DNA of 64,000 nucleotides from Cladocopium goreaui (taxonomy: Eukaryota > Sar > Dinophyceae > Suessiales > Symbiodiniaceae): NCBI GenBank assembly GCA_947184155.2, contig CAMXCT020000317.1, forward strand, positions 97,950 through 161,949, given 5' to 3'. Below, piece by piece: positions 8,389 to 54,135 of this stretch. The position numbers were made by a program, and so were the translations under genes. A model generated the notes under the pieces. It had not been told where the DNA came from and did no database searches. It worked only from the letters and a program-made list of their open reading frames with translations. Positions within the stretch are counted from its first letter, which is position 1. Every line of letters starts with the position of its first letter.

Positions 8389-9729
8389 TCAGCAAGGTTG
8401 AGCGTAACTCATGTTGATTCTTCTACATGCCAAAAGGCGTAGACCATCTTGCGCTCGCTTTTTGGCTTCTTTTAAGCACATATCACAGATTGGTCTCTCG
8501 GGCTCAAGCCAATCTTTTTTCGGCATTTGCACAAAATTCGTTTTTTGGTAAGTTTGCGTTTCAAACTTCCCAGGCAACTGTGCTTTCGTCCGCTTGGTGC
8601 CAAACCATCCTTCGTGACAATACGAGCAGTCTTGAAATTCAAGCTCGTTCAAAAAAGTATCGACTTCATTGACACGATGGAAAAAAGCCATGGTGCGGCT
8701 TTCGGCATCTGCGGAATTTCCGTACAGTTGTCGCAAACTCTTCGGCAACCTGGGCCGTGGCAAGTCATCTCCCAAGACTGTCTCCCGGCTATGCAACTTT
8801 GCTTCATGCGATTTCTTCAGCGGCACAGTGGCTGCTGCTGGCAACAGCTGTCCTAGCGCATTTCTCACCATCTCTTTCTTGTCCTCTGTCAGACTCGGAA
8901 ACGTGCGTTGCATGAAGTCAAAACAGCAACGAAGTTCGGCATCTTGCTTCTTGCCGTGCACATTAAACAAAGACTCAACACTTGCTGCGCCACAGGATTG
9001 CAATTCTACTTTTCTTCGATCCAGGATCTGCATGAACTTGTCTACCGAATCAACTGCTGGAACACACAACAATGTTTCCCATTCCTGCAACTTAGCCTTC
9101 ATATCTTCATCAAGGTTTTCATACCTCCGTCGCCAAAAATTTCGGCCAAATACATATTCTGGCTTACCTGTACGCTCAGCTGCACACATGAGTTGAAGCA
9201 GCGTCGACTTCTGCATCCCTTGCAACTCTTCTCTGTTATCTTCAAGAATGTTGACGAAACGATCGAACTCGGGCTGCGCAGCTGCATGCTTCACACATAC
9301 CCGCCGTTCCAAATCCTTCCACTTTTCCTTTTCTTCTTCATTCAAACTCTCATATGTGTAGTTCTTCACAAAACGATAACAAATGCCTCTCCAAGTTCTG
9401 CTCTGTGAAACAGTCTTACTCATGCACACATCACGCAATGTACCTTTTCCCAAAGCCTTCATCTCCTCTACGTGCGCTTCTGCAGCAGCACAAAACTTCC
9501 GAAAGGCTGCTCGCACATCTGACACGCAGTTTTGTTTTTCCCATTCTTGTATCACTTGGGTCTGTTCGGCTGAAAAGGTTTTCTCAAGAGCAAGATACAT
9601 CTTGTAATACTTCCAACATTTTCCGGTGCTTAGACAAGCTTTCAACCTCTTACATTCCAGCACCTTCAAAGTCGCCGCTTCCTTCTCGATGTATGACCAC
9701 AGATCAGCAAAGGTCCCCGATTGCGCCAT
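8389..9729 (-). CDS. 446-residue intronless protein with zinc-ribbon-like Cys pairs, probable mobile-element (Helitron-like) protein fragment
   Basis: Single uninterrupted reading frame starting ATGGCGCAATCG at 9729. It is the only long intronless non-repetitive frame in the window. Residues 1-330 are charged and mostly helical-looking, with repeated spaced Trp/Cys blocks. Near residues 367-370 there is CSYC within the context QDCSYCHEGWFGTK, and near 414-417 CDMC, giving a C-x2-C...C-x2-C zinc-binding pattern. From general knowledge, this Cys-pair and 'GWFGT' context resembles the N-terminal part of Helitron-type helicase polyproteins common in dinoflagellates. The helicase and Rep parts are absent, since the frame stops at 8389, so it would be a truncated copy. 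Identity is an inference; it could instead be an unrelated nuclear zinc protein. Minus-strand frames just upstream (9730-10070) may be further exons or decayed element sequence. Confidence 0.6.
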   Translation of the reverse strand: MAQSGTFADLWSYIEKEAATLKVLECKRLKACLSTGKCWKYYKMYLALEKTFSAEQTQVIQEWEKQNCVSDVRAAFRKFCAAAEAHVEEMKALGKGTLRDVCMSKTVSQSRTWRGICYRFVKNYTYESLNEEEKEKWKDLERRVCVKHAAAQPEFDRFVNILEDNREELQGMQKSTLLQLMCAAERTGKPEYVFGRNFWRRRYENLDEDMKAKLQEWETLLCVPAVDSVDKFMQILDRRKVELQSCGAASVESLFNVHGKKQDAELRCCFDFMQRTFPSLTEDKKEMVRNALGQLLPAAATVPLKKSHEAKLHSRETVLGDDLPRPRLPKSLRQLYGNSADAESRTMAFFHRVNEVDTFLNELEFQDCSYCHEGWFGTKRTKAQLPGKFETQTYQKTNFVQMPKKDWLEPERPICDMCLKEAKKRAQDGLRLLACRRINMSYAQPC

Positions 9730-10090
9730 GGCTCCACCGCGTCTTAGGAAACGGGCCGCACTGCCACGTCTCCTTGCGCACTGCGACGTCCGAAATTATG
9801 AGCATGGCTGTCTCATCATGCATGCCTTTCTCATCCACTATAACCGCTCCAAAACATGAGAAAATCTTCGTGACTAACCATGAGACCTGAATACATGACA
9901 CCTCTGACAAATGCACGTTCCCAAGTCTTTCTTGCTACACATGTCTGCCTCCTGGAAAATGCAAACGGCTGCGGCCACAACACATCGCCACCGTGGTTTC
10001 TAATCAAGAGTTCTATAGCTTGTTCCTGAACATCAATGTCACAACATTTACCTACATCAATATCGCACACAAAACTCGAAATAGCAACCT
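9730..10090 (-). other. Possible upstream coding remnants of the 8.4-9.7 kb gene
   Basis: Two overlapping minus-strand frames (9831-10070 and 9704-9916) have protein-like composition, for example 'VARKTWERAFVRG' and 'ETAMLIISDVAVRK', but no recognised domain. They could be 5' exons of the gene at 8389-9729 or decayed element sequence. Confidence 0.3.
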
Positions 10091-10290: not shown

Positions 10291-10299
10291 TTGCTGCTC

Positions 10300-11138
10300 C
10301 AAAACCGGATCTCGACGCCAAAGCAAGAAAAAGACGATTTTGAAGCATTTTTGAAAAGGAATTTCAAAAGGAAAATTACTAGCGCCAAATTTGCGAAAAT
10401 CTGCTGACAAATGACTATCGCAGCCTGGATGCAGCCACTCCAATACGATTTACAATCTTCAGCTGCAAAAGACAATAGTATTACGCATGCAGCCGCGGCG
10501 GCAAGCAACCTTGAGGCAGCCACTCCAATGCGATCTGCAGAGACTGAGTTGCAAATCACAATAGAACTAAGCGCAACGGCGTCGGAAATTGCAGCTCCAA
10601 AACCGGATCTCGACGCCAAAGCAAAAAAAAACGATTTTGAAGCATTTTTTAAAAGGAATTTTAAAAGGATAATTATTAGCGCCAAATTTGGGAAAATCTG
10701 CTGACAAATGACTATCGCAGCCTGGATGCAGCCACTCCAAGACGATTCACAATCTTCAGCTGCAAAAGACAATAGTATTACGCATGCAGCCGCTGCACCA
10801 AGCAACCTTGACGCAGCCACTCCAATGCGATCTGCAGAGACTGAGTTGCAAAACCCAATAGAAGTACGTGCAATGGCGTCGGAAATTGCAGCTCCAAAAC
10901 CGGATCTCGACGCCAAAGTGAAAAAAAGACGATTTTGAGGCACTTTTTAAAAGGAATTTTAAAAGGAAAATTATTAGCGCCAAAATTGGGAAAATCTGCT
11001 GACAAATGACTATCGCAGCCTGGATGCAGCCACTCCAATACGATTTACAATCTTCAGCTGCAAAAGACAATAGTATTACGCATGCAGCCGCGGCGGCAAG
11101 CAACCTTGACGCAGCCACTCCAATGCGATCTGCAACCG
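10300..11138. repeat. 297-bp tandem repeat, about 2.8 copies
   Basis: The phrase 'ctgctgacaaatgactatcg' recurs at 10401, 10698 and 10996, a period of 297-298 bp. Each unit also carries 'aaccggatctcgacgccaaa' and 'gcagccactccaatgcgat'. The open frames across it on both strands repeat in step with the unit, so I treat them as repeat artefacts. Confidence 0.95.
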
Positions 11139-11830
11139 GAGATTCCAAAACACCCTATAACTACGCACACACAACCACACCCAAAGCAGCTTGAAGCCAC
11201 CGTTACACTGCGGCAAAAAAAAACGATAAACCGACCGCAGCCGCACCCGCCGCACAGACGAGGTACCTTTCATCGTCGCCTGCAGCCACTTTACACGGAA
11301 AAACACAAGGTTTCGTGCTCCGGCTTCCTCCCCAAAACAGCGCCCTTGCAACATCATGCAGCCATTCCAATGCGATCTGCAAGCACAGATTCCAAAACAC
11401 CCTATAACTACGCACACACAAGCACACCCAAAGCAGCTTGAAGCCACCGTTACACTGCGGCAAAAAAAAAACGACCAACCGACCGCAGCCGCACCCGCCG
11501 CACAGACGAGGTACCTTTCATCGTCGCCTGCAGCCACTTTACACGGAAAAACACAAGGTTTCGTGCTCCGGCTTCCTCCCCACAACAGAGCCCTTGCAAC
11601 ATCATGCAGCCATTCCAATGCGATCTGCAAGCACAGATTCCAAAACACCCTATAACTACGCACACACAAGCACACCCAAAGCAGCTTGAAGCCACCGTTA
11701 CACTGCGGCAAAAAAAAACGACCAACCGACCGCAGCCGCACCCGCCGCACAGACGAGGTACCTTTCATCGTCGCCTGCAGCCACTTTACACGGAAAAACA
11801 CAAGGTTTCGTGCTCCGGCTTCCTCCCCAA
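11114..11830. repeat. 247-248-bp tandem repeat, about three copies
   Basis: The phrase 'aggtacctttcatcgtcgcc' recurs at 11261, 11509 and 11756. The array shares the module 'gcagcca(c/t)tccaatgcgat' with the preceding 297-bp array, and the two meet at that module (11114-11138). A minus-strand frame of 241 codons crosses the array but only by cycling through repeat units. Confidence 0.95.
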
Positions 11831-15459: not shown

Positions 15460-18267
15460 GGCACAGCTATGGCCATCCTGCGCCAACACAGCTGGTGGTC
15501 TACCCACCAGCAATTCTATGAGGACCTGTCAGTCGCGTAAGGTCTGCCATGGTCTGCCATGGTCCTCTCCGCGGTTAATTCTTGTTTGATTCCTTTAAAG
15601 CTTGGCGGAAGCTGTCACGAGCTGTTAGCTTTCCACAGCCACTGTTCACGCCTGACCAAAAGAGTAGCATTCGCTAGATTCAGATATCACACCAGTCCTG
15701 TCACCATGCATCACTATCACACGGGTCGATGGTCGCTTACGTCCAAGTGGGTGATTTTCGTCCAGGCAAAGCATCGCTGCTGACCGTGACCAGTGGTAAT
15801 CTCCTGGTGTACAAAGGATCAGAGTACCCCAGCGTCCCAGCGACTTGCCTTAGATTCATCTGGCCACTTCCCATCATTTTTTCCGTATACTTCAACCAAT
15901 GCTGCGAATCATGAGATATGTGGTCCACTGAGACTCCAACACTGTGGCCACCTCGTGCTCGTGATGGTGGTTGGCCATGCATGCCAAGCCTGAGCCAGTG
16001 ACCAAGTGACCAAAACCAGTTTCTGGAACTGATCCAAACATCCAAACGTGACGGCAAGCCATCTTGGAGTAGCCCACCAAAATCAGCGATTTTAGCCGTG
16101 CCATCACTGCTGAAGAGGATGTTTTGGCTCTTGATGTCGCCTAGAGATGCGATTGCAGGGTTTGCAGTAAGACATGTGTCAATCAACAGCGAATTCTCTG
16201 GGCAATCAAGGTGCGGTGAAAGATCTTCGGTCGGTGCTTATGTAGGTGAGCAAGACCCCGGCAAACCTGCAACGCAGAATCACCGCGTGTCCACGAAATC
16301 CCAAAGTACAGCCAAACGAAAAGCTGTGCCTCCGTGGCTGTTCTCAGGCGATCCTGCCACTGGTAGGGTTTTTCATCCCGCAGCCTCGCAGGCATAGCTA
16401 AACAGAGCATGCAGAACATCATGCAAAGCATCATGCACTGGGCCTTTGCTATGGCAACTCATTTGGTATTGAAATGGATTGAAATGGTAAACTTCATCCC
16501 AGACTCATGGGTCCTATGGACCACCAGCTCAGTCGCTTCAATGTTTTTCTCGACATGTTTTCGGCCTCGCCTTCGGTACAAGTCACCGCCGTGCAGCATC
16601 TCGTAAACGAGTGCACATCGTCGGTTGATGGGCGCGAAGGGAAATTGGGTCTCTTCGGCAAACCCTAGAAGCATCACCACCTACAACCACTCAAAGCACT
16701 CAAGTGCTCAGGAAATCAGACCCAAATGAACTTCCCCAACTTGTCTTCATACTATGGGCTATAGGGAAAAAAATGTTGAATCAAATGGAATATGTAAGTG
16801 TCTACTGGGTATATTACTGTGACTGGAATGATTTTACTGATTGAATCTTTCAACATCTTCCAACTGCTTATAGAATTACTTTTCCTACTCTTCCGTGCCG
16901 GGTACTGGGCTCCTGGCATTGGGGTGCCGGCAGCGTGACAAGAGTCTCACCTCTTCGTCAAACCCGCCCCGCGCCGGGGCATCCAACACCTGACTCACCG
17001 TCCATGAAGGGAGCACGGCGTGAAAGGAACCCTGCCTTGATTGCAGCTTCGGTGCCCTCACAAAGGGTGGCATAATAGACAGTACCTGGCTATAGATCAA
17101 AACCGTGGTGAACATCTAGCGGCAATAGCTGCCATGTGAATGGATGTTCATCCCATCAAAGATATTCAAAGAATTTTCAAAAGATTTTTAAAGATATCAT
17201 AAAAATTCATAATATAAAATGTCAAATTAGGATTAATCAGCACCGCCCGATGAAGCAACCTCTACTGCCCCCCAAAAAATGGTAATTTAAAAACAGTTGG
17301 TCCCCCTGGATTAATAAGCTCTTTTGCCTGGACCTAATTAATCAACCACCAGTGCTGAAATCTTATTTTCTGATCCAAAATTCTTTATTTCCAATTCTTT
17401 TTGTTTCTCATCATGTCTCATCAATCTCAGAACTCATCATCGTTTCTTGTTCAGTCTTAAAAACTATCACTGCCATCCCATACTGCCACCCCATGCTGCT
17501 CATTGCTTCTTTTTTCTGCTGATGGCCTGCCTCATTGAAATGATTTGTGAATGAGCTTGCCTGATCGCTTATGTGCCTGTCTCATGAAATACCTTTGGCA
17601 TTTCCATTTATCACATTTATGGCACCCACTCTGATGCCTGCATTTGGGGCACATTTCAATTTCATTCAAGCTGATCCTCAAGATCTCATCAAATCCAATG
17701 GAATTCCATTAGATTTTAGCAATCAAATCTCATCAAATCCAATGGAATTCTATGAAAATTTAATTGACATCCATAGGTTCCAAGCCATATCGAAAATTTT
17801 ATGGTTCAGAGGGCGTTTATTTCGGGGGGAAACTAGAAAAGACCTTCCAAGGTCAATCTGACCTTGTGGGGGGGGTGATTAATCCGATGTTGACATATGT
17901 ATATATAATATAATATAATATAATATGCGTAATATAGTGTGATAGCCACTTGCAGCAAGGTGTCACAAGGCGCACCACTTGCTCCAGCACCGAGCTGGCG
18001 AGTTGGCGCGAAGCTCTCTGTAGCCTGGGCACATTTCCGGAGCTGCCGTTGACACAAAAAATGGCACCAAAAGATGGCCAAAATGTCTTTGTTTCATTTG
18101 GCTAAAATGTGCCACTGTTTACCCCCACTTTTTCACCATCGCTGGACAGTATCAGTCCCAGTCCCAGTCCCAGTGCCTGTTGCAGCTCCTGCCATGAGTA
18201 CTCCAAAGCGAGGCCCTCGAGTCCTTCGATGGCACTTTTCGGCTCCTCCAACTCGGCAGACAGATTC
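15460..18267 (-). CDS. Spliced protein kinase gene, receptor-like/TKL-type catalytic domain (partial)
   Basis: Twelve minus-strand exons join in frame: 18177-18267 (start inferred), 17976-18024, 17036-17085, 16918-16989, 16571-16680, 16330-16384, 16215-16266, 16078-16140, 15941-15989, 15804-15848, 15652-15697 and 15525 downward (end unclear). In order they give a lead-in ATESF as in receptor-like kinases, the glycine loop LGAGASG|TVYY, the ATP lysine AAIK, the helix-C glutamate FDEEV, the hinge ALVYEMLHGGDL, the catalytic loop HRDIKSQN, the metal-binding DFG, the activation-segment end GTLGYSDPLY, and ECYSFGQVLIELL. It should phosphorylate Ser/Thr (Tyr possible) in the cytosol or at a membrane. 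Introns are 7 GC-AG, 3 GT-AG and 1 GA-AG, and every acceptor is AG|G. The usual subdomain IX 'SDVYSFG' Asp is Glu here. The final C-lobe helices and the protein's N-terminus are not identified. Confidence 0.93.
17089..17158 (+). mobile_element. Family C short repeat (degenerate copy) at the 3' end of a kinase intron
   Basis: The plus strand reads 'ggctatagatcaaaacc', then 'ggtgaacatc', then 'atagctg' and 'aatggatgttcatccca'. It shares this order of phrases with copies at 22337-22434 and 45834-45937. Read on the gene strand, the element ends '...ctatagccag', which is exactly the acceptor of the 890-nt intron 17086-17975. Confidence 0.7.
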
Positions 18268-32800: not shown

Positions 32801-34091
32801 CATTCACAAACAAATGATGTTGCAAATTACCGTAATTCCTATGGGGAAAATAACAAAGGTACTAGGGACTATTAAACAAACAAGGTCAAAAAAAACGAAA
32901 TTCCTATGGGAAAAACAAAACGGCATAACATTTGAAATTCCTATGGGAAAAACAACAAAGGTACTAGGAAATTTTAAACTCTCAAATCGTGAAACTTAAC
33001 ATTCAATTAGGAAGATCAACAAAGATATTAGGGAATATTAAACTCCCACCCCCGTTAAACCTTAAATTCCTATGGGGAAAACAACAAAGGTACTAGGGAC
33101 TATATTTAAAAAAAAAATGTCAAAACACCCGAAATTCCTATGGGAAAAACAAAAACGGTATTAGGGAATATTAAACTCCAACCCCGTTAAACTTTATAAT
33201 CAATTGGGAAGATCAACAAAGATATTAGGGAATATGAAACTCCCACCCCCGTTAAACTTCTACATTCATTGAAGATCTTCAATAAGGGTTTAATTCTCCC
33301 ACCCCCGTTAAACTTCTACATTGATTGAAGATCTTCAATAAGGGTTTAATTCTCCCACCCCCGTTAAACTTCTACATTCATTGAAGATCTTCAGTAAGGG
33401 TTTAATTCTCCCACCCCCGTTAAACTTCTACATTCATTGAAGATCTTCAATAAGGGTTTAATTCACCCACCCCCGTTAAACTTCTACATTCATTGAAGAT
33501 CTTCAATAAGGGTTTAATTCTCCCACCCCCGTTAAACTTCTACATTCATTGAAGATCTTCGATAAGGGTTTAATTCTCCCACCCCCGTTAAACTTCTACA
33601 TTCATTGAAAATCTCCAATAAGGGTTTAATTATCCCACCCCCGTTAAACTTCTACATTCATTGAAGATCTCCAATAAGGGTTTAATTCTCCCACCCCCGT
33701 TAAACTTCTACATTCATTGAAGATCTTCAATAAGGGTTTAATTCTCCTACCCCCGTTAAACTTCTACATTCATTGAAGATCTTCGATAAGGGTTTAATTC
33801 TCCCACCCCCGTTAAACTTCTACATTCATTGAAGATCTTCAATAAGGGTTTAATTCTCCCACCCTCATTAAACTTCTACATTCATTGAAGATCTTCGATG
33901 AGGGTTTAATTCTCCCACCCCCGTTAAACTTCTACATTCATTGAAGATCTCCAATAAGGGTTTAATTCTCCCACCCCCGTTAAACTTCTACATTCATTGA
34001 AGATCGTCAATAAGGGTCTGATGATGTTGATGATGATGATGATGATGGTGGTGATGATGATGATGATGATGATTATGTTGATGATCATGAT

Positions 34092-38354: not shown

Positions 38355-39126
38355 TCAAAAGAGCTTCGCTCTTCTCATGACGGTAAGAAACTCCTCCTCC
38401 TGCAAGACCCCATCACCAGACTCATCTGCCTCAAGCATCGATACTTTGTTTCAGGCAAAGTCCTCCAAACCCCCGAGTAGTTTGCTAGTTGCGGCTCTGG
38501 GTGCCTGGCATCATCCATCATTTCTTGCAGCTCTTGGTCACTGAAGGCAAGGCCAAGATCATCTGAGACCGCCCTCAAGCTACGCCAAGTGATGCCGCCA
38601 ATCCTGCAAAAGGAAATGGTCATCTGGGAATGACTCAGTCTCTAAGTTTCTAATCTCTCTGTCTCCCTCTCTCTGTCTCTCTCTCTCTCTGTCTCTCTCT
38701 CTCTCTCTCTCTTTCTCTCTTTCGGTTTTCGGTCTCTAAACACATTGAAGGTGCAATTGCACGATTGCAAACATGGTCAGAATCCCTTCTGAGGAGCAAG
38801 CCCTGGCTCGACGAAAAGGGGATAGGCCTCCAATTTCCAATCAAAGTACCAAGATTTGAACACGAGTTGCAACAGAGAGAGACTGAGGATGACCGGTCAT
38901 TCCTGTATGCTGGCCTTTCTTATGATGGCAGATGGCTTGCGTCCCCTTAGCACCCATTGAATCTAGGTACTTTGCAAAGCAAACAATGGAGTGATACTTG
39001 AGAAAGGCTGTGGAATGGAGCCAAAATTGTCAGAAGATTAGAAACTAGGATCATCTAAGATGCAAGCAAGACTTTGGGAGCCATCATTTGCAGAAACTCA
39101 TCTAGTTCTATTTCTCCTGAGCCGTC
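38355..39126 (-). CDS. Centrin-like EF-hand protein, three exons visible (partial)
   Basis: Exon 39073-39126 reads DGSGEIELDEFLQMM, most of an EF-hand loop and its exit helix. Exon 38510-38603 reads 'GGITWRSLRAVSDDL', 'GLAFSDQELQEMM', matching the third-hand region of centrins. Exon 38355-38429 reads ADESGDGVLQEEEF then LTVMRRAKLF and a TGA stop, a full calcium-binding loop (D,S,D,V,Q,E at positions 1,3,5,7,9,12) and the typical centrin tail. The last two exons join across an 80-nt GC-AG intron (38430-38509) to give EMMDD|ADESGDG. Centrins are calcium-binding proteins of basal bodies and flagellar roots. The segment usually linking hand 2 to hand 3 was not found between 38604 and 39072, and hand 1 is not seen. 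The copy may therefore be incomplete, or those exons escaped me. Confidence 0.85.
38650..38725. repeat. CT microsatellite
   Basis: CTCTGTCTCT and (CT)n run, just upstream of a centrin-like exon on the minus strand. Confidence 0.95.
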
Positions 39127-39469
39127 CTGTGGCGAGATAGATCAAGTAGAAACGGGTACGACACCACGATTTAAACTTATTGATCCAAACCACGTTTGGA
39201 AACGGTTGAACCACAAAAAAAAACGCTAGTTTTAAACCACGATTTGGTTTGTTTAGGCAGCACGTATATTAACCAAATCTCGCTTGTAAACCTTTTTTGG
39301 GGTTCATTTGGTTCATTTGAGAATTATATGCATATGAATGAGTGCTTCTAGTTCGGAAAAGGGATTATCCGCCGACCCCGGCCTTTGCCAAGGCAGGGGC
39401 GGCGCCTGGGACCACCGGAGGTGTGGAACTTGGCTCTCGGGTCGCAAGCAAAGGCACACGCCATCAACA

Positions 39470-41490
39470 CCTACATGCCCCTGCCATCTGTTTTTCAGGA
39501 CGTTCAAGACTGCCGTTTGCCCGCCCTCAAACCCCCCAAACGCTCCCGCAGGCCTCCAAGGCAACAACTCTTACTCTTACAGCTACGTGCCCCTGCCATC
39601 TGTTTTTCAAGGGGTTCAAGACTGCCGTTTGCCCGCCTTCAAACCCCCCAAACGCTCCCGCAGGCCTCCAAGGCAACAACTCTTACAGCTACATGCCCCT
39701 GCCATCTGTTTTTCAGGGGGTTCAAGACTGCCCTCTTACAGCTACGTGCCCCTGCCATCTGTTTTTCAGGGGGTTCAAGACTGCCGTTTGCCCGCCCTCA
39801 AACCCCCCAAACGCTCCCGCAGGCCTCCAAGGCAACAACTCTTACAGCTACATGCCCCTGCCATCTGTTTTTCAGGGGGTTCCACACTGCCGTTTGCCCG
39901 CAGCCCCCCAAACGCTTCTGCATCTGTTTTTCAAGGGGTTCAAGACTGCCGCTTTACCCCCCTTAAACCCCCCAAACGCTTCCGCAGGCCTTCAAGGCAA
40001 CAACTCTTACAGCTACATGTCCCTGCCATCTTGGGTTCAAGACTGCCGTTTGCCCGCCCTCAAACCCCCCAAAGGCAACAACTCTTACAGCTACATGTCC
40101 CTGCCATCTGTTTTTCAGGGGGTTCAAGACTGCCGTTTGCCCGCCCTCAAACCCCCCAAACGCTCCCGCAGGCCTCCAAGGCAACAACTCTTACAGCTAC
40201 ATGCCCCTGCCATCTGTTTTTCAAGGGGTTCAAGACTGCCGTTTCCCCGCCCTCAAACCCCCCAAACGCTCCCGCAGGCCTCCAAGGCAACAACTCTTAC
40301 AGCTACATGTCCCTGCCATCTGTTTTTCAGGGGTGTCAAGACTGCCGTTTGCCCGCCCTCAAACCCCCCAAACGCTCCCGCAGGCCTCCAAGGCAACAAC
40401 TCTTACAGCTACATGTCCCTGCCATCTGTTTTTCAGGGGGTTCAAGACTGCCGTTTGCCCGCCCTCAAACCCCCCAAACGCTCCCGCAGGCCTCCAAGGC
40501 AACAACTCTTACAGCTACATGTCCCTGCCATCTGTTTTTCAGGGGGTTCAAGACTGCAGTTTGCCTGGCCTCAAACCCCCAAACGCTTCCAACCCTCCCG
40601 CAGGCCTTCAAGGCAACAACTCTTACAGCTACATGTCCCTGCCATCTGGGGTTCAAGACTGCCGTTTGCCCGCCCTCAAACCCCCCCAAAGGCAACAACT
40701 CTTACAGCTACATGTCCCTGCCATCTGTTTTTCAAGGGGTTCAAGACTGCCGTTTGCCCGCCCTCAAACCCCCGAAACGCTCCCGCAGGCCTCCAAGGCA
40801 ACAACTCTTACAGCTACATGCCCCTGCCATCTGTTTTTCAGGGGGTTCAAGACTGCCGTTTGCCTGCCCTCAAACCCCCCAAACCCCCAAAACGCTTCCG
40901 CAGGCCACTCTTACATCTATACATGCCCCTGCCATCTGTTTTTCAGGGGGTTCAAGACTGCCGTTTGCCCGGCCTCAAACCCCCCAAACGCTTCCGCAGG
41001 CCTACAAGGCAACAACTCTTATCTGTTTTTCAGGGGGTTCAAGACTGCCGTTTGCCCGCCCTCCCCCAAACTTCCAACCCTTCCGCAGGCCTCCAAGGCA
41101 ACAACTCTTACAGCTACATGCCCCTGCCATCTGTTTTTCAGGGGGTTCAAGACTGCCGTTTGCCCGGCCTCAAACCCCCCAAACGCTTCCAACCCTCCCG
41201 CAGGCCTCCAAGGCAACAACTCTTACAGCTACATGCCCCTGCCATCTGTTTTTCAGGGGGTTCAAGACTGCCGTTTGCCCGCCCTCAAACCCCCGAAACG
41301 CTCCCGCAGGCCTCCAAGGCAACAACTCTTACTATTACAGCTACGTGCCCCTGCCATCTGTTTTTCAGGGGGTTCAAGACTGCCGTTTGCCCGCCCTCAA
41401 ACCCCCCAAATGCTCCCGCAGGCCTCCAAGGCAACAACTCTTACAGCTACATGCCCCTGCCATCTGTTTTTCAGGGGGTTCAAGACCCAA
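39470..41490. repeat. 106-bp satellite array, about 18 units
   Basis: The phrase 'ggcaacaactcttacagcta' recurs at 39560, 39672, 39831, 39996, 40074, 40180, 40286, 40392, 40498, 40612, 40691, 40797, 41008, 41097, 41212, 41318 and 41430; one further unit near 40900 has lost it. The basic spacing is 106 bp with short indels. Because 106 leaves remainder 1 on division by 3, each forward frame rotates through all phases. Two frames stay open for over 700 codons and the third for over 400. I treat these as repeat artefacts, though transcription cannot be excluded. Confidence 0.97.
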
Positions 41491-47848: not shown

Positions 47849-48073
47849 TGAACCGGTCAAATGACACTACCGCAGTCAACTGTCTTTTTAGACTTTCTTT
47901 CGATGCGGTCGAGAGTCAAGGGTTGAGACAACCCATGACTTGGCTATGACCAGAAGACGGTCCTCAGCAACCTAGCTACTACAGCGTTCGCTGTAAAGCC
48001 AAAAAGGGCGCTTGCAAGCTATGGGCTGCAGCAAACCACAGCCAGTAGCTGTAAGCTTTTTTCCTACATTCTC

Positions 48074-48298
48074 TCACAAACTCTTGTACTTCTCAATGGC
48101 CTGCTTTACGCTGTCCTGCTGATCAGCTGGCACCATGCACATGCAGGTCTCCACTGTTGGCACTGGGCCGCCAAGGCAAGGGAAGAAGGGTTTGATGCTG
48201 CCAGGTGCCTTTGCCGCAATCTCATCCTCCACTGCCTTTTTGGCTGCCTCCTTCATGCCGTCACCCATACCTCCCATGGCTCCCATCATTCCAGCCAT
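48074..48298 (-). CDS. 74-residue protein of unknown function, array copy 1
   Basis: The protein starts MAGMMGAMGGMGDGM, continues with an Ala/Lys/Glu helix (KEAAKKAVEDEIAAK), then KPFFPCLGGPVPTVE and TCMCMVPADQQ, and ends with a helix SVKQAIEKYKSL and a TGA stop. I chose the ATG at 48298 because all six copies agree from there on, while the in-frame extension upstream differs between copies. The T/C-rich 'cactttcag' ends two bases before this ATG, which would suit a trans-splice acceptor. A second acceptor-like 'tttctttgcttgccag' lies about 75 bases upstream. There is no signal peptide or membrane segment. Function is unknown; three Cys residues (CL, TCMC) may bind metal or form disulfides. 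Identical copies suggest high expression demand. Confidence 0.75.
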   Translation of the reverse strand: MAGMMGAMGGMGDGMKEAAKKAVEDEIAAKAPGSIKPFFPCLGGPVPTVETCMCMVPADQQDSVKQAIEKYKSL

Positions 48299-48967
48299 CT
48301 CTGAAAGTGCAGGAGTGAGCAAAGTCCGAGAATGTTGAAGCTGCAAAAATGCTGCAACCAAAGGAGCCCGGAGCTGGCAAGCAAAGAAATAAGATAATAT
48401 AAACATATCTCAACCTTCTATATCTTCTATCATACTATGAACTATGAACCTGGGATTTTGCAAGAAACCCATTCTTCAGTCAATTCTCTGTCAGATCCGG
48501 TCGAACAGTATCACACACTCTTCAAACTCTGCAAAGCAAATGCTGGAAATAGATGGAAATGGTCAATGTAAAATGCAAACTCTTCTCTGAACACTATCCT
48601 TTCGATCATTGGTCGGTTCTGTCAACTAGAAAAATTCAATCTGCCAGACATTAACCACATGGTTTTGCAACAGCACCAACAACAAGCTCGGTTTCAAAAG
48701 GTTTACACACCCGATTGCACTACTGGACCCGGACCACAAGGCCCCAGAGGGTCTGACGACAACACCGCGGTCAATGTTCTTTTAGACTTTCTTTCGATGC
48801 GGTCGAGAGTCAAGGGTTGAGACAACCCATGACTTGGCTATGACCAGAAGACGGTCCTCAGCAACCTAGCTACTACAGCGTTCGCTGTAAAGCCAAAAAG
48901 GGCGCTTGCAAGCTATGGGCTGCAGCAAACCACAGCCAGTAGCTGTAAGCTTTCTTCCTACATTCTC

Positions 48968-49192
48968 TCACAAACTCTTGTACTTCTCAATGGCCTGCTT
49001 TACGCTGTCCTGCTGATCAGCTGGCACCATGCACATGCAGGTCTCCACTGTTGGCACTGGGCCGCCAAGGCAAGGGAAGAAGGGTTTGATGCTGCCAGGT
49101 GCCTTTGCCGCAATCTCATCCTCCACTGCCTTTTTGGCTGCCTCCTTCATGCCGTCACCCATACCTCCCATGGCTCCCATCATTCCAGCCAT
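48968..49192 (-). CDS. 74-residue protein of unknown function, array copy 2
   Basis: The protein is identical to copy 1 and the 5' context 'cactttcagAGATG' is the same. The spacer upstream (49193-49888) contains the 27-bp hairpin segment in its most symmetrical form, GTTACGC-agttag-GCGTAAC, near 49391-49410. Confidence 0.75.
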   Translation of the reverse strand: MAGMMGAMGGMGDGMKEAAKKAVEDEIAAKAPGSIKPFFPCLGGPVPTVETCMCMVPADQQDSVKQAIEKYKSL

Positions 49193-49888
49193 CTCTGAAA
49201 GTGCAGGAGTGAGCAAAGTCCGAGAATGTTGAAGCTGCAAAAATGCTGCAACCAAAGGAGCCCGGAGCTGGCAAGCAAAGAAATAAGACAATATAAATAT
49301 ATCTCAACCTTCTATATCTTCTATCATACTATGAACTATGAACCTGGGATTTTGCAAGAAAGCCATTCTTCAGTCAATTCTCTGTCAGATGTTACGCAGT
49401 TAGGCGTAACTTCTGTACCGGTCGAACAGTATCACACACTCTTCAAACTCTGCAAAGCAAATGCTGGAAATAGATGGAAATGGTCAATGTAAAATGCAAA
49501 CTCTTCTCTGAACACTATCCTTTCGATCATTGGTCGGTTCTGTCAACTAGAAAAATTCAATCTGCCAGACATTAATCACATGGTTTTGCAACAGCACCAA
49601 CAACAAGCTCGGTTTCAAAAGGTTTACACACCCGATTGCACTACTGGACCCGGACCACAAGGCCCCAGAGGGTCTGACGACAACACCGCGGTCAATGTTT
49701 TTTTAGACTTTCTTTCGATGCGGTCGAGAGTCAAGGGTTGAGACAACCCATGACTTGGCTATGACCAGAAGACGGTCCTCAGCAACCTAGCTACTACAGC
49801 GTTCGCTGTAAAGCCAAAAAGGGCGCTTGCAAGCTATGGGCTGCAGCAAACCACAGCCAGTAGCTGTAAGCTTTCTTCCTACATTCTC

Positions 49889-50113
49889 TCACAAACTCTT
49901 GTACTTCTCAATGGCCTGCTTTACGCTGTCCTGCTGATCAGCTGGCACCATGCACATGCAGGTCTCCACTGTTGGCACTGGGCCGCCAAGGCAAGGGAAG
50001 AAGGGTTTGATGCTGCCAGGTGCCTTTGCCGCAATCTCATCCTCCACTGCCTTTTTGGCTGCCTCCTTCATGCCGTCACCCATACCTCCCATGGCTCCCA
50101 TCATTCCAGCCAT
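49889..50113 (-). CDS. 74-residue protein of unknown function, array copy 3
   Basis: The protein is identical to copy 1. The upstream region reads 'gcccaagctggc' where other copies read 'gcccggagctggc', a length change that shifts the frame upstream. This supports the start at the internal ATG (50113) and a non-coding upstream segment. The upstream spacer is the short type. Confidence 0.75.
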   Translation of the reverse strand: MAGMMGAMGGMGDGMKEAAKKAVEDEIAAKAPGSIKPFFPCLGGPVPTVETCMCMVPADQQDSVKQAIEKYKSL

Positions 50114-50781
50114 CTCTGAAAGTGCAGGAGTGAGCAAAGTCCGAGAATGTTGAAGCTGCAAAAATGCTGCAACCAAAGGAGCCCAAGCTGGCAAGCAAAG
50201 AAATAAGACAATATAAATATATCTCAACCTTCTATATCTTCTATCATACTATGAACTATGAACCTGGGATTTTGCAAGAAACCCATTCTTCAGTCAATTC
50301 TCTGTAAGATCCGGTCGAACAGTATCACACACTCTTCAAACTCTGCAAAGCAAATGCTGGAAATAGATGGAAATGGTCAATGTAAAATGCAAACTCTTCT
50401 CTGAACACTATCCTTTCGATCATTGGTCGGTTCTGTCAACTAGAAAAATTCAATCTGCCAGACATTAACCACATGGTTTTGCAACAGCACCAACAACAAG
50501 CTCGGTTTCAAAAGGTTTACACACCCGATTGCACTACTGGACCCGGACCACAAGGCCCCAGAGGGTCTGACGACAACACCGCAGTCAATGTTCTTTTAGA
50601 CTTTCTTTCGATGCGGTCGAGAGTCAAGGGTTGAGACAACCCATGACTTGGCTATGACCAGAAGACGGTCCTCAGCAACCTAGCTACTACAGCGTTCGCT
50701 GTAAAGCCAAAAAGGGCGCTTGCAAGCTATGGGCTGCAGCAAACCACAGCCAGTAGCTGTAAGCTTTCTTCCTACATTCTC

Positions 50782-51006
50782 TCACAAACTCTTGTACTTC
50801 TCAATGGCCTGCTTTACGCTGTCCTGCTGATCAGCTGGCACCATGCACATGCAGGTCTCCACTGTTGGCACTGGGCCGCCAAGGCAAGGGAAGAAGGGTT
50901 TGATGCTGCCAGGTGCCTTTGCCGCAATCTCATCCTCCACTGCCTTTTTGGCTGCCTCCTTCATGCCGTCACCCATACCTCCCATGGCTCCCATCATTCC
51001 AGCCAT
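50782..51006 (-). CDS. 74-residue protein of unknown function, array copy 4
   Basis: The protein is identical to copy 1. Upstream 'aagactataaatat' replaces 'aagacaatataaatat', removing the upstream in-frame ATG used in copies 1 and 2, again favouring the internal start. The upstream spacer is the long type. Confidence 0.75.
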   Translation of the reverse strand: MAGMMGAMGGMGDGMKEAAKKAVEDEIAAKAPGSIKPFFPCLGGPVPTVETCMCMVPADQQDSVKQAIEKYKSL

Positions 51007-51699
51007 CTCTGAAAGTGCAGGAGTGAGCAAAGTCCGAGAATGTTGAAGCTGCAAAAATGCTGCAACCAAAGGAGCCCGGAGCTGGCAAGCAAAGAAATAA
51101 GACTATAAATATATCTCAACCTTCTATATCTTCTATCATACTATGAACTATGAACCTGGGATTTTGCAAGAAACCCACTCTTCAGTCAATTCTCTGTCAG
51201 ATGTTACGCAGTCAGGCATAACTTCTGTACCGATCGAACAGTATCACACACTCTTCAAACTCTGCAAAGCAAATGCTGGAAATAGATGGAAATGGTCAAT
51301 GCAAAATGCAAACTCTTCTCTGAACACTATCTTTTCGATCATTGGTCGGTTCTGTCAACTAGAAAAATTCAATCTGCCAGACATTAACCACATGGTTTTG
51401 CAACAGCACCAACAACAAGCTCGGTTCCAAAAGGTTTACACACCCGATTGCACTACTGGACCCGGACCACAAGGCCCCAGAGGGTCTGACGACAACACCG
51501 CGGTCAATGTTTTTTAGACTTTCTTTCGATGCGGTCGAGAGTCAAGGGTTGAGACAACCCATGACTTGGCTATGACCAGAAGACGGTCCTCAGCAACCTA
51601 GCTACTACAGCGTTCGCTGTAAAGCCAAAAAGGGCGCTTGCAAGCTATGGGCTGCAGCAAACCACAGCCAGTAGCTGTAAGCTTTCTTCCTACATTCTC

Positions 51700-51924
51700 T
51701 CACAAACTCTTGTACTTCTCAATGGCCTGCTTTACGCTGTCCTGCTGATCAGCTGGCACCATGCACATGCAGGTCTCCACTGTTGGCACTGGGCCGCCAA
51801 GGCAAGGGAAGAAGGGTTTGATGCTGCCAGGTGCCTTTGCCGCAATCTCATCCTCCACTGCCTTTTTGGCTGCCTCCTTCATGCCGTCACCCATACCTCC
51901 CATGGCTCCCATCATTCCAGCCAT
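51700..51924 (-). CDS. 74-residue protein of unknown function, array copy 5
   Basis: The protein is identical to copy 1 and shares the upstream 'aagactataaatat' variant with copy 4, so copies 4 and 5 are likely the most recent duplicates. The upstream spacer is the long type. Confidence 0.75.
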   Translation of the reverse strand: MAGMMGAMGGMGDGMKEAAKKAVEDEIAAKAPGSIKPFFPCLGGPVPTVETCMCMVPADQQDSVKQAIEKYKSL

Positions 51925-52618
51925 CTCTGAAAGTGCAGGAGTGAGCAAAGTCCGAGAATGTTGAAGCTGCAAAAATGCTGCAACCAAAGGAGCCCGGAGC
52001 TGGCAAGCAAAGAAATAAGACTATAAATATATCTCAACCTTCTATATCTTCTATCATACTATGAACTATGAACCTGGGATTTTGCAAGAAACCCACTCTT
52101 CAGTCAATTCTCTGTCAGATGTTACGCAGTTAGGCATAACTTCTGTACCGATCGAACAGTATCACACACTCTTCAAACTCTGCAAAGCAAATGCTGGAAA
52201 TAGATGGAAATGGTCAATGTAAAATGCAAACTCTTCTCTGAACACTATCTTTTCGATCATTGGTCGGTTCTGTCAACTAGAAAAATTCAATCTGCCAGAC
52301 ATTAACCACATGGTTTTGCAACAGCACCAACAACAAGCTCGGTTTCAAAAGGTTTACACACCCGATTGCACTACTGGACCCGGACCACAAGGCCCCAGAG
52401 GGTCTGACGACAACACCGCGGTCAATGTTTTTTTAGACTTTCTTTCGATGCGGTCGAGAGTCAAGGGTTGAGACAACCCATGACTTGGCTATGACCAGAA
52501 GACGGTCCTCAGCAACCTAGCTACTACAGCGTTCGCTGTAAAGCCAAAAAGGGCGCTTGCAAGCTATGGGCTGCAGCAAACCACAGCCAGTAGCTGTAAG
52601 CTTTCTTCCTACATTCTC

Positions 52619-52843
52619 TCACAAACTCTTGTACTTCTCAATGGCCTGCTTTACGCTGTCCTGCTGATCAGCTGGCACCATGCACATGCAGGTCTCCACT
52701 GTTGGCACTGGGCCGCCAAGGCAAGGGAAGAAGGGTTTGATGCTGCCAGGTGCCTTTGCCGCAATCTCATCCTCCACTGCCTTTTTGGCTGCCTCCTTCA
52801 TGCCGTCACCCATACCTCCCATGGCTCCCATCATTCCAGCCAT
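52619..52843 (-). CDS. 74-residue protein of unknown function, array copy 6 (promoter-proximal end)
   Basis: The protein is identical to copy 1. Array homology ends about 143 bases upstream of the ATG, at 52986, after which the sequence is unique. If the array is transcribed as one unit, as tandem genes are thought to be in dinoflagellates, its promoter would lie in the unique DNA above 52986. Confidence 0.75.
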   Translation of the reverse strand: MAGMMGAMGGMGDGMKEAAKKAVEDEIAAKAPGSIKPFFPCLGGPVPTVETCMCMVPADQQDSVKQAIEKYKSL

Positions 52844-52986
52844 CTCTGAAAGTGCAGGAGTGAGCAAAGTCCGAGAATGTTGAAGCTGCAAAAATGCTGC
52901 AACCAAAGGAGCCCGGAGCTGGCAAGCAAAGAAATAAGACAATATAAATATATCTCAACCTTCTATATCTTCTATCATACTATGAA

Positions 52987-54135
52987 CTGTCAAAGTATCA
53001 TTTGCATGAGTGTCAAGAATGTTCAAATACGCGCGAAACTCCACGTTTCTGCCGCGGCCACATTTTTTGATATTTAGCTTGACCAATCCAGGGGATGGAG
53101 TTCACAGAGAAGGAAACACCTCGGTCTTTATAAATACCAAAGAAATGTTAAATTTAAATTTAAATTAACAACCTGATATTCAGAATACCAACCTTGAGGT
53201 GGTTGTTTTTCCTTCTGTATTCACCCTTCGGCTTTCAAGCCAATTCAAGACATGGCATATTGGCTGTACAAGCTAGAATTGAAAACATCAGAGAGCCGGG
53301 CATTAAAGTGCCACACTCTCCTCACTGTCATCATGACAACACGCTGCATCAGTTGCCTTGATCCAGGAACTCAGTTTGTCAATTTGTTTGCAAGATTTAG
53401 TAGTATGTGCATGCTCCTTGCCGCTTTCTTAAATAGGATTCAAAAGAAACATGTAACGTCTTGTCCGTGCAAACGCCCATGCAAATGCCCGGGTGAACTT
53501 GGCGCAAATATGTACAACTTGCCAGCTCTACCTGGGACTCCTACAGCGTACTGACACTTTCACTGACGCAAGGGCTGCAGGATTTGTGTCAGGCGGAGTG
53601 ATTCAAACGGGGTGAATATATATATATATACATACATACACATTATATACGCTGAAGCAAGATCTCTGCTTGGCTATGTCTTGTGACAGAGAATGGGATC
53701 AGAAAACATCCTCAGCCCTTCAACCAGTTTGTACAAGATATCCACTCCAAGTGGAAGAATGAGAAGAACGAGAAAAGCCTGCGTAGGCCGTAACCGTAAG
53801 CTCTTGGAGTCTCTTGGAGTCGGCTGCGTGCTGGGCTGCTTGGCAGCTCAATATGAAAAATCACAAATGCAGCCACCAGTTTGCAGCTTTCGCACCTCCG
53901 ACGGCTTGGTTGTCTCTGCCATGTCTTCCATGTCTGAATTCCATTTGGAATTTTCTCAAAATGCCCACCCCATTCCATCTCAAGGTCTAAAACCTAATTT
54001 TCCCCTGTAAATGGCCATAAAATCACTTTACAAGATTGTAAAACTGCTAGCAATGAGTGCATTTGCCCATCATTTCCCCCAGTTTTGAGGATCACACTGC
54101 ATTCTTCAGCTCGTGATGCAGGGGGCCAGCTCCAG
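52987..54135. other. Unique sequence upstream of the tandem array
   Basis: Could contain the array promoter; no element is identifiable by eye. A small TA tract lies at 53615-53650. Forward frames (53252-53554, 53693-54010) show no domain. Confidence 0.4.

Follow-up and report, generated by a model that had tools for sequence, protein, structure and literature searches.

Why does a dinoflagellate genome hold the same short frame six times over, and what does that frame encode? The question is raised by a stretch of 64,000 nucleotides (nt) from Cladocopium goreaui (contig CAMXCT020000317.1 of assembly GCA_947184155.2, positions 97,950 to 161,949; hereafter the window), the minus strand of which carries six complete head-to-tail copies of a 225-nt frame. 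The locus is probably a dinoflagellate tandem array that raises the dosage of a trans-spliced gene, whose product would be an uncharacterised, widespread, stand-alone small protein. The array type is already known; the arrayed gene is new and its family is unnamed in the libraries searched.

The arrayed frame and its protein family

The array was delimited by blastn of one unit against the window and by repeat-family analysis, the individual copies by blastn, and the relatives of the protein by protein search.

47886-52988, minus strand: tandem array of six cassettes
52619-52843, minus strand: coding sequence of copy c1, 74 residues, the most 5' in the reading direction
51700-51924, minus strand: coding sequence of copy c2, identical
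50782-51006, minus strand: coding sequence of copy c3, identical
49889-50113, minus strand: coding sequence of copy c4, identical
48968-49192, minus strand: coding sequence of copy c5, identical
48074-48298, minus strand: coding sequence of copy c6, identical, the most 3'

The ATG codons are located at 52843, 51924, 51006, 50113, 49192 and 48298 of the minus strand, at successive distances of 919, 918, 893, 921 and 894 base pairs (bp), which gives an overall period of 893-921 bp. In the alignment the 225 coding bases are identical in all six copies, each uninterrupted and contained in a single exon, and every copy specifies the same protein of 74 residues (7.7 kDa, isoelectric point 5.2). The six homogeneous tandem copies encoding one protein that a first-pass annotation of the sequence had reported are thus confirmed, and the array occupies the span then given (47849-52986) except at its left end, where 47849-47885 contain only a diverged spacer remnant. 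Identity of whole units to the query unit is 96.4-99.1%, and a stretch of 300 nt is repeated exactly in the six copies, so that a chance origin of the array is not tenable. Each of the six copies has its own start and stop, which is not the arrangement of a polyprotein.

A single-sequence search with the 74-residue protein returned 21 relatives at expectation values (E) up to 1, and a profile search returned 164 at E up to 0.1. Since relatives in other species match its translation, the 225-nt frame is, on the strength of these comparisons, a real gene. The 164 profile relatives match the 74-residue frame, the only one searched; they bear out the protein and the frame proposed in the first pass and answer its concern that the conserved frame might lie elsewhere in the unit. 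The relatives described here are the best 120 of the 164 profile matches. A readable organism name or a Skav tag is present on 20 of these 120, and all 20 nameable proteins are from dinoflagellates, in agreement with the affinity suggested earlier. Among the matches listed, those from Symbiodiniaceae and allies belong to C. goreaui, Durusdinium trenchii, Symbiodinium and Skav, a prefix that we take to denote Fugacium kawagutii; the others belong to two Amphidinium species, Crypthecodinium cohnii, Pyrodinium, Azadinium, Karlodinium, Prorocentrum micans, Alexandrium, Noctiluca scintillans and Ceratium. On these 20 matches, together with scans of prokaryote and viral contigs in which no relative reached threshold, rests the apparent dinoflagellate-only distribution of the family.

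The statement that the protein matches nothing failed for sequence relatives and held for named families and solved structures. Against Pfam-A the window protein gave nothing above the curated cut-off (best, DUF3283, 12.8 bits against 25.8), and no Pfam family reached threshold with 58 aligned members, the best E being 0.0065, for CbiN in 2 members. Searches of NCBIfam, PDB and solved folds yielded no match at threshold, and no published description of the family was found in literature searches. Judged from these comparisons, the family is uncharacterised and widespread in dinoflagellates, including non-photosynthetic ones. Noctiluca and Crypthecodinium do not photosynthesise, and their presence in the family argues against a photosynthetic role.

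The identical 74 residues are held by P0003 (representing 55 member sequences), P0004 and P0005. In the public contigs of the last two (1221 and 1316 bp) the upstream frames differ and join the window sequence only shortly before the ATG, a divergence that resembles other array edges or loci. A further public contig (P0100, 1064 bp) has the window's own upstream frame but breaks off after residue 52, so that degenerate copies of the unit exist elsewhere. A tree built from ~64-residue segments of 55 sequences places the window protein in a group of 8 with Cladocopium (local support 0.87), and the next group, of 12, adds Fugacium (0.79); the tree is only a rough guide, because the diverged protein P0112 also falls inside the group of 12. 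By these comparisons the source of the array would probably belong to Symbiodiniaceae.

Residue conservation was assessed in the 58 aligned members, the window protein included. Fixed or nearly fixed are K16, K20, E24, P32, K36, F39, C41, G43, G44, P45, V46, T48, P57, D59, A67, I68, K70, Y71 and K72. The family is marked by a turn of conserved sequence, KPxFPCCGGPVGT, and by a helix with the motif IxKYK at the C-terminus, and the signature KPxFPC-GGPV ... VPAD ... IxKYK is present in the window protein, which deviates in having L42 where 49 of the 58 have C, and P47 where 44 have G. The Met/Gly-rich start is variable and missing in about half of the members (gap at residue 11 in 29). Net charge across the 58 ranges from -3 to +3, which argues against a histone-like DNA-binding role.

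AlphaFold models were obtained for the window protein (58 sequences; predicted local distance difference test, pLDDT, 84.7; predicted template modelling score, pTM, 0.64) and for a 63-residue member from Amphidinium carterae (80 sequences; pLDDT 92.4, pTM 0.75). The four helices of one model correspond to those of the other, and form a long pair and a short pair; the first-pass proposal of two helices captured the long pair and missed the short one. The predicted product is a stand-alone, single-domain, compact four-helix miniprotein. As to its role, our leading guess, offered as a conjecture, is a soluble helical binding module of the cytosol or nucleoplasm; we consider an enzymatic, plastid or metal-thiolate protein less likely.

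Candidate transcript signals

The signals that could delimit a transcript are given below for c1 and, where they differ, for the other copies.

52844-52920, minus strand: candidate trans-splice acceptor region of c1, with AG at -77, -55, -44, -4 and -2
52426-52437, minus strand: candidate poly(A) site of c1, TCTAAAAAAACA, the same in c4 (AAAAG/C motif, PMC2488372)
Minus strand, remaining copies: candidate poly(A) site, TCTAAAAAACA in c2, TCTAAAAGAACA in c3 and c5, TCTAAAAAGACA in c6
52438-52618, minus strand: putative 3' untranslated region (3'UTR) of c1 with four successive stem-loops (fold); no substitution in c1-c5, one in c6

The AG candidates recur at the same positions in the other copies, except for -76 in place of -77 in c4. 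The sequence of the 22-nt dinoflagellate spliced leader (SL) was taken from PMC7245778, which, like the other published sources, is cited here from excerpts of its text. A translated SL was recognised in three of the 121 proteins scanned (the window's own included), as RSHFGS in P0069 and P0073 and as VAILAQ in P0055, at 59 nt (P0055), 55 nt (P0069) and 67 nt (P0073) ahead of the start codon. An acceptor at -77 or -55 would leave 75 or 53 nt after the leader, the values closest to those of the relatives, and one of these two candidates is favoured because the three relatives have 5'UTR lengths of 55-67 nt. The A-run that starts at +409 has seven A before a C in c1 and c4, six A before a C in c2, the sequence AAAAG in c3 and c5, and five A before a G in c6; AAAAG or AAAAC is present in it in all six copies, at the end of the block of low variation described below. 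A similar poly(A) site, AAAAG/C, has been described in Amphidinium arrays, there with 3-5 A (PMC2488372). By arithmetic, the messenger RNA (mRNA) would be of ~0.5 kilobases (kb) and the distance between transcripts of ~0.43 kb, within the 85-982 range of the same source.

In the proposed mechanism each of the six single-exon cassettes, having its own candidate trans-splice acceptors and A-run poly(A) site, would for that reason give rise to a separate SL-capped mRNA of roughly 0.5 kb; many identical templates would by gene dosage supply one abundant product, and the transcribed block would be kept identical by concerted evolution and/or by selection on the mRNA. High expression of the array is suggested by analogy; in A. 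carterae, 14 of 15 highly expressed genes are arranged in tandem arrays (PMC2488372, excerpt).

Several observations weigh against this scheme. None of the three leaders in the relatives is at the extreme N-terminus, being preceded by 48 residues in P0055, 21 in P0069 and 9 in P0073, and P0069 has a run of eight K ahead of the leader that may be a poly(A) stretch; the sequence upstream of the SL in the three proteins is likely a product of chimeric assembly, or else the leaders may be genomic relicts, which leaves evidence for trans-splicing that is good without being clean. The A-runs of c1, c2 and c4 (6-7 A) exceed the 3-5 A reported, and the putative 3'UTR of ~180 nt is longer than the 42-143 nt given for A. 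carterae (PMC2488372). Upstream of the window copies no relict SL was found: the 21-mer had 0 matches in the window, and the 15-mer (3 mismatches, chance mean 2.78) had 1, which lies beyond the array, at 39015. With no relict SL upstream of the start codons, a retrogene carrying a relict leader was discarded as a description of the locus.

Introns appear to be present in other family members and absent from the arrayed copies of the window. In 14 of 122 proteins, counted by eye, the similarity ends directly past the position that matches window residue 63; the break comes after EQ or DQ, and the next residue is A in 13 cases and V in 1, a pattern that would fit translation running on into an intron whose donor is GC or GT. 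The 14 are not all independent, as P0092 and P0122 share sequence. Several proteins also begin abnormally just ahead of AKK. Arrayed copies probably occur in another lineage too, where the Skav gene models P0002 and P0023 comprise two copies of the protein each, ~72-76% identical to the window's, with an implied spacing of ~787 and 868 bp on the assumption that the span extends from start to stop.

Variation between the copies and its possible causes

Alignment of the copies located a block without substitutions in each unit and an insertion/deletion in the spacers.

52431-52914, minus strand: block without substitutions in c1, -71 to +412 relative to the ATG
51512-51995, minus strand: the same block in c2
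50594-51077, minus strand: the same block in c3
49701-50184, minus strand: the same block in c4
48780-49263, minus strand: the same block in c5
47886-48369, minus strand: the same block in c6, with one difference (+238)
49391-49417, 51203-51229 and 52121-52147, minus strand: 27-bp hairpin-bearing insertion/deletion in the spacer (copy alignment, fold)

Variation is reduced over the transcribed segment as a whole, a conclusion that is well supported. The 484-nt block, which resembles the putative mRNA, is identical in five copies, and c6 differs once, at +238, outside the frame. In the five complete start-to-start intervals, the block (-71 to +412) has substitutions in 0 of its 483 gap-free columns, and the spacer in 13 of its 407 (Fisher p 3.4e-5). 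The limits of the block were picked after inspection of the data, for which reason the run test is the fairer one; the longest substitution-free run covers 484 of 890 columns (permutation p 8e-4). The spacers contain in addition two substitutions inside the 27-bp insertion/deletion, a 2-bp indel and a 1-bp indel, and are closely similar, as claimed in the first pass, but not fully identical. Nor is the block free of indels, since the A-run at +409, at its 3' edge, varies by 1 bp in length between copies. Three of the five complete spacers carry the 27-bp segment and two lack it, so that it resembles a small insertion or excision. The cause of the reduced variation may be selection, conversion or mRNA-templated overwriting.

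It is possible, if short of an even chance, that the array reflects recent expansion only, through few unequal crossovers, the quiet block being then the outcome of ordinary selection and chance without any special homogenisation. The high identity of whole units agrees with this, as do the six informative spacer characters, among which there is no four-gamete conflict, and the 45 synonymous sites, where zero changes has a probability of 0.23 at the spacer rate. However, no substitution falls in the untranslated parts of the block either, over the same five intervals (0 of 258 columns, compared with 13 of 407 in the spacer; p 0.002). That test is weaker than the one on the whole block, and an earlier flawed run, with badly cut units and the c6 difference included, returned p 0.07 when the 3' part was taken by itself; both points count against the preferred reading, and the second favours simple expansion. 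Homogenisation of the transcribed block only is what gene conversion templated by mRNA or complementary DNA (cDNA) would produce, reverse-transcribed mature mRNA repeatedly overwriting the copies. The block begins close to the candidate acceptors (-77/-55) and ends at the A-run, and the window copies are intronless, yet the 14 proteins mentioned above break, intron-like, at one residue. Such conversion is nevertheless unlikely: the edges are placed only to within tens of bases, an identical pattern would be expected from selection on the mRNA, and the absence of a relict SL at the copies counts against simple re-insertion of mature mRNA, of which relicts are the described mark (PMC7245778). 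Improbable as a whole is also the wider proposal of a miniprotein family universal in dinoflagellates, with a compact fold of its own and abundance-driven arrays in two or more Symbiodiniaceae lineages, in which an mRNA/cDNA repair template would confine homogenisation to the mature-mRNA segment.

Other alternatives concern the product. A structured noncoding RNA in the 3' part could be the conserved element and the small frame incidental, and the region 52431-52621 (minus strand), which recurs in every unit, does fold into four hairpins better than shuffled sequence (z -2.83 against 200 shuffles); the conservation of the protein family between species in the 74-residue frame, and the lack of any Rfam family at gathering score within the window, leave this reading with very little probability. 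The 3' stem-loops may serve in the stability or processing of the mRNA. The TCMC centre, which had been noted in the first pass, would in a cysteine-based protein bind metal or form a disulfide. In favour of such a protein, Cys41 is present in 54 of the 58 members and CC at 41-42 in 46 (CL in the window protein). The pair at 52/54, in contrast, is CC in 24, FF in 22, FC in 6, MF in 5 and CF in 1; the TCMC pair is thus dispensable, both cysteines being Phe in 22 members, and does not define the family. Positions 52 and 54 look hydrophobic rather than strictly Cys. A metal or redox function is accordingly quite unlikely, although Cys41 and Cys42 may have a role of this kind.

Known arrays, the rest of the window and significance

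The dosage-raising array of a small-protein gene, the reading preferred here, has close counterparts. The dinoflagellate arrays treated in PMC2488372 (A. carterae survey, Karlodinium psbO and actin, Lingulodinium PCP) share with it head-to-tail copies and short spacers, together with AG acceptors and A-run poly(A) sites that in the window are candidates, and it differs from them in its unnamed small product and in a putative 3'UTR longer than their range. The unidirectional single-exon tandem genes of Polarella glacialis, a relative of Symbiodiniaceae (PMC7245778), are likewise on the same strand; the examples excerpted from that source are named families (rhodopsin-like, ice-binding, PCP), whereas the window array is unnamed in its product and lacks a relict SL. 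With the conserved 'dark' dinoflagellate proteins of PMC6249206 the protein has in common dinoflagellate-wide conservation and no annotated family, but its 74 residues are fewer than their mean lengths of 234 and 109 in the excerpt.

Other features were observed elsewhere in the window.

8392-9795, minus strand: long open frame (468 codons between stops) for which Pfam gave nothing above cut-off; possibly a gene without introns
15740-16237, minus strand: fragment like the catalytic loop of protein kinases (Pkinase, 20.8 bits, short of the cut-off of 31.7; E 2.9e-4); perhaps one exon
10291-11830: two adjoining tandem arrays with 297-bp and 248-bp units (94 and 97% matches)
33240-34017: array of a 56-bp unit repeated 13.9 times (95% matches)
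39467-41486: 2-kb field of ~106-bp repeats

Over 50% of dinoflagellate genes have no known function, and the top-expressed transcripts include many unnamed genes, according to the excerpted 2024 review (PMC11453091). The family described here offers a tractable entry point to these unknowns, being small, present from Noctiluca to coral symbionts, of a single domain and with a confident predicted fold; its production in the laboratory should moreover be straightforward. A minimum of 100 residues is often applied in transcriptome annotation, and the many members of 60-75 residues would drop below that cut. The array itself is a compact test case for the uniformity of such genes, in which the pattern of variation can separate transcript-limited from unit-wide homogenisation.

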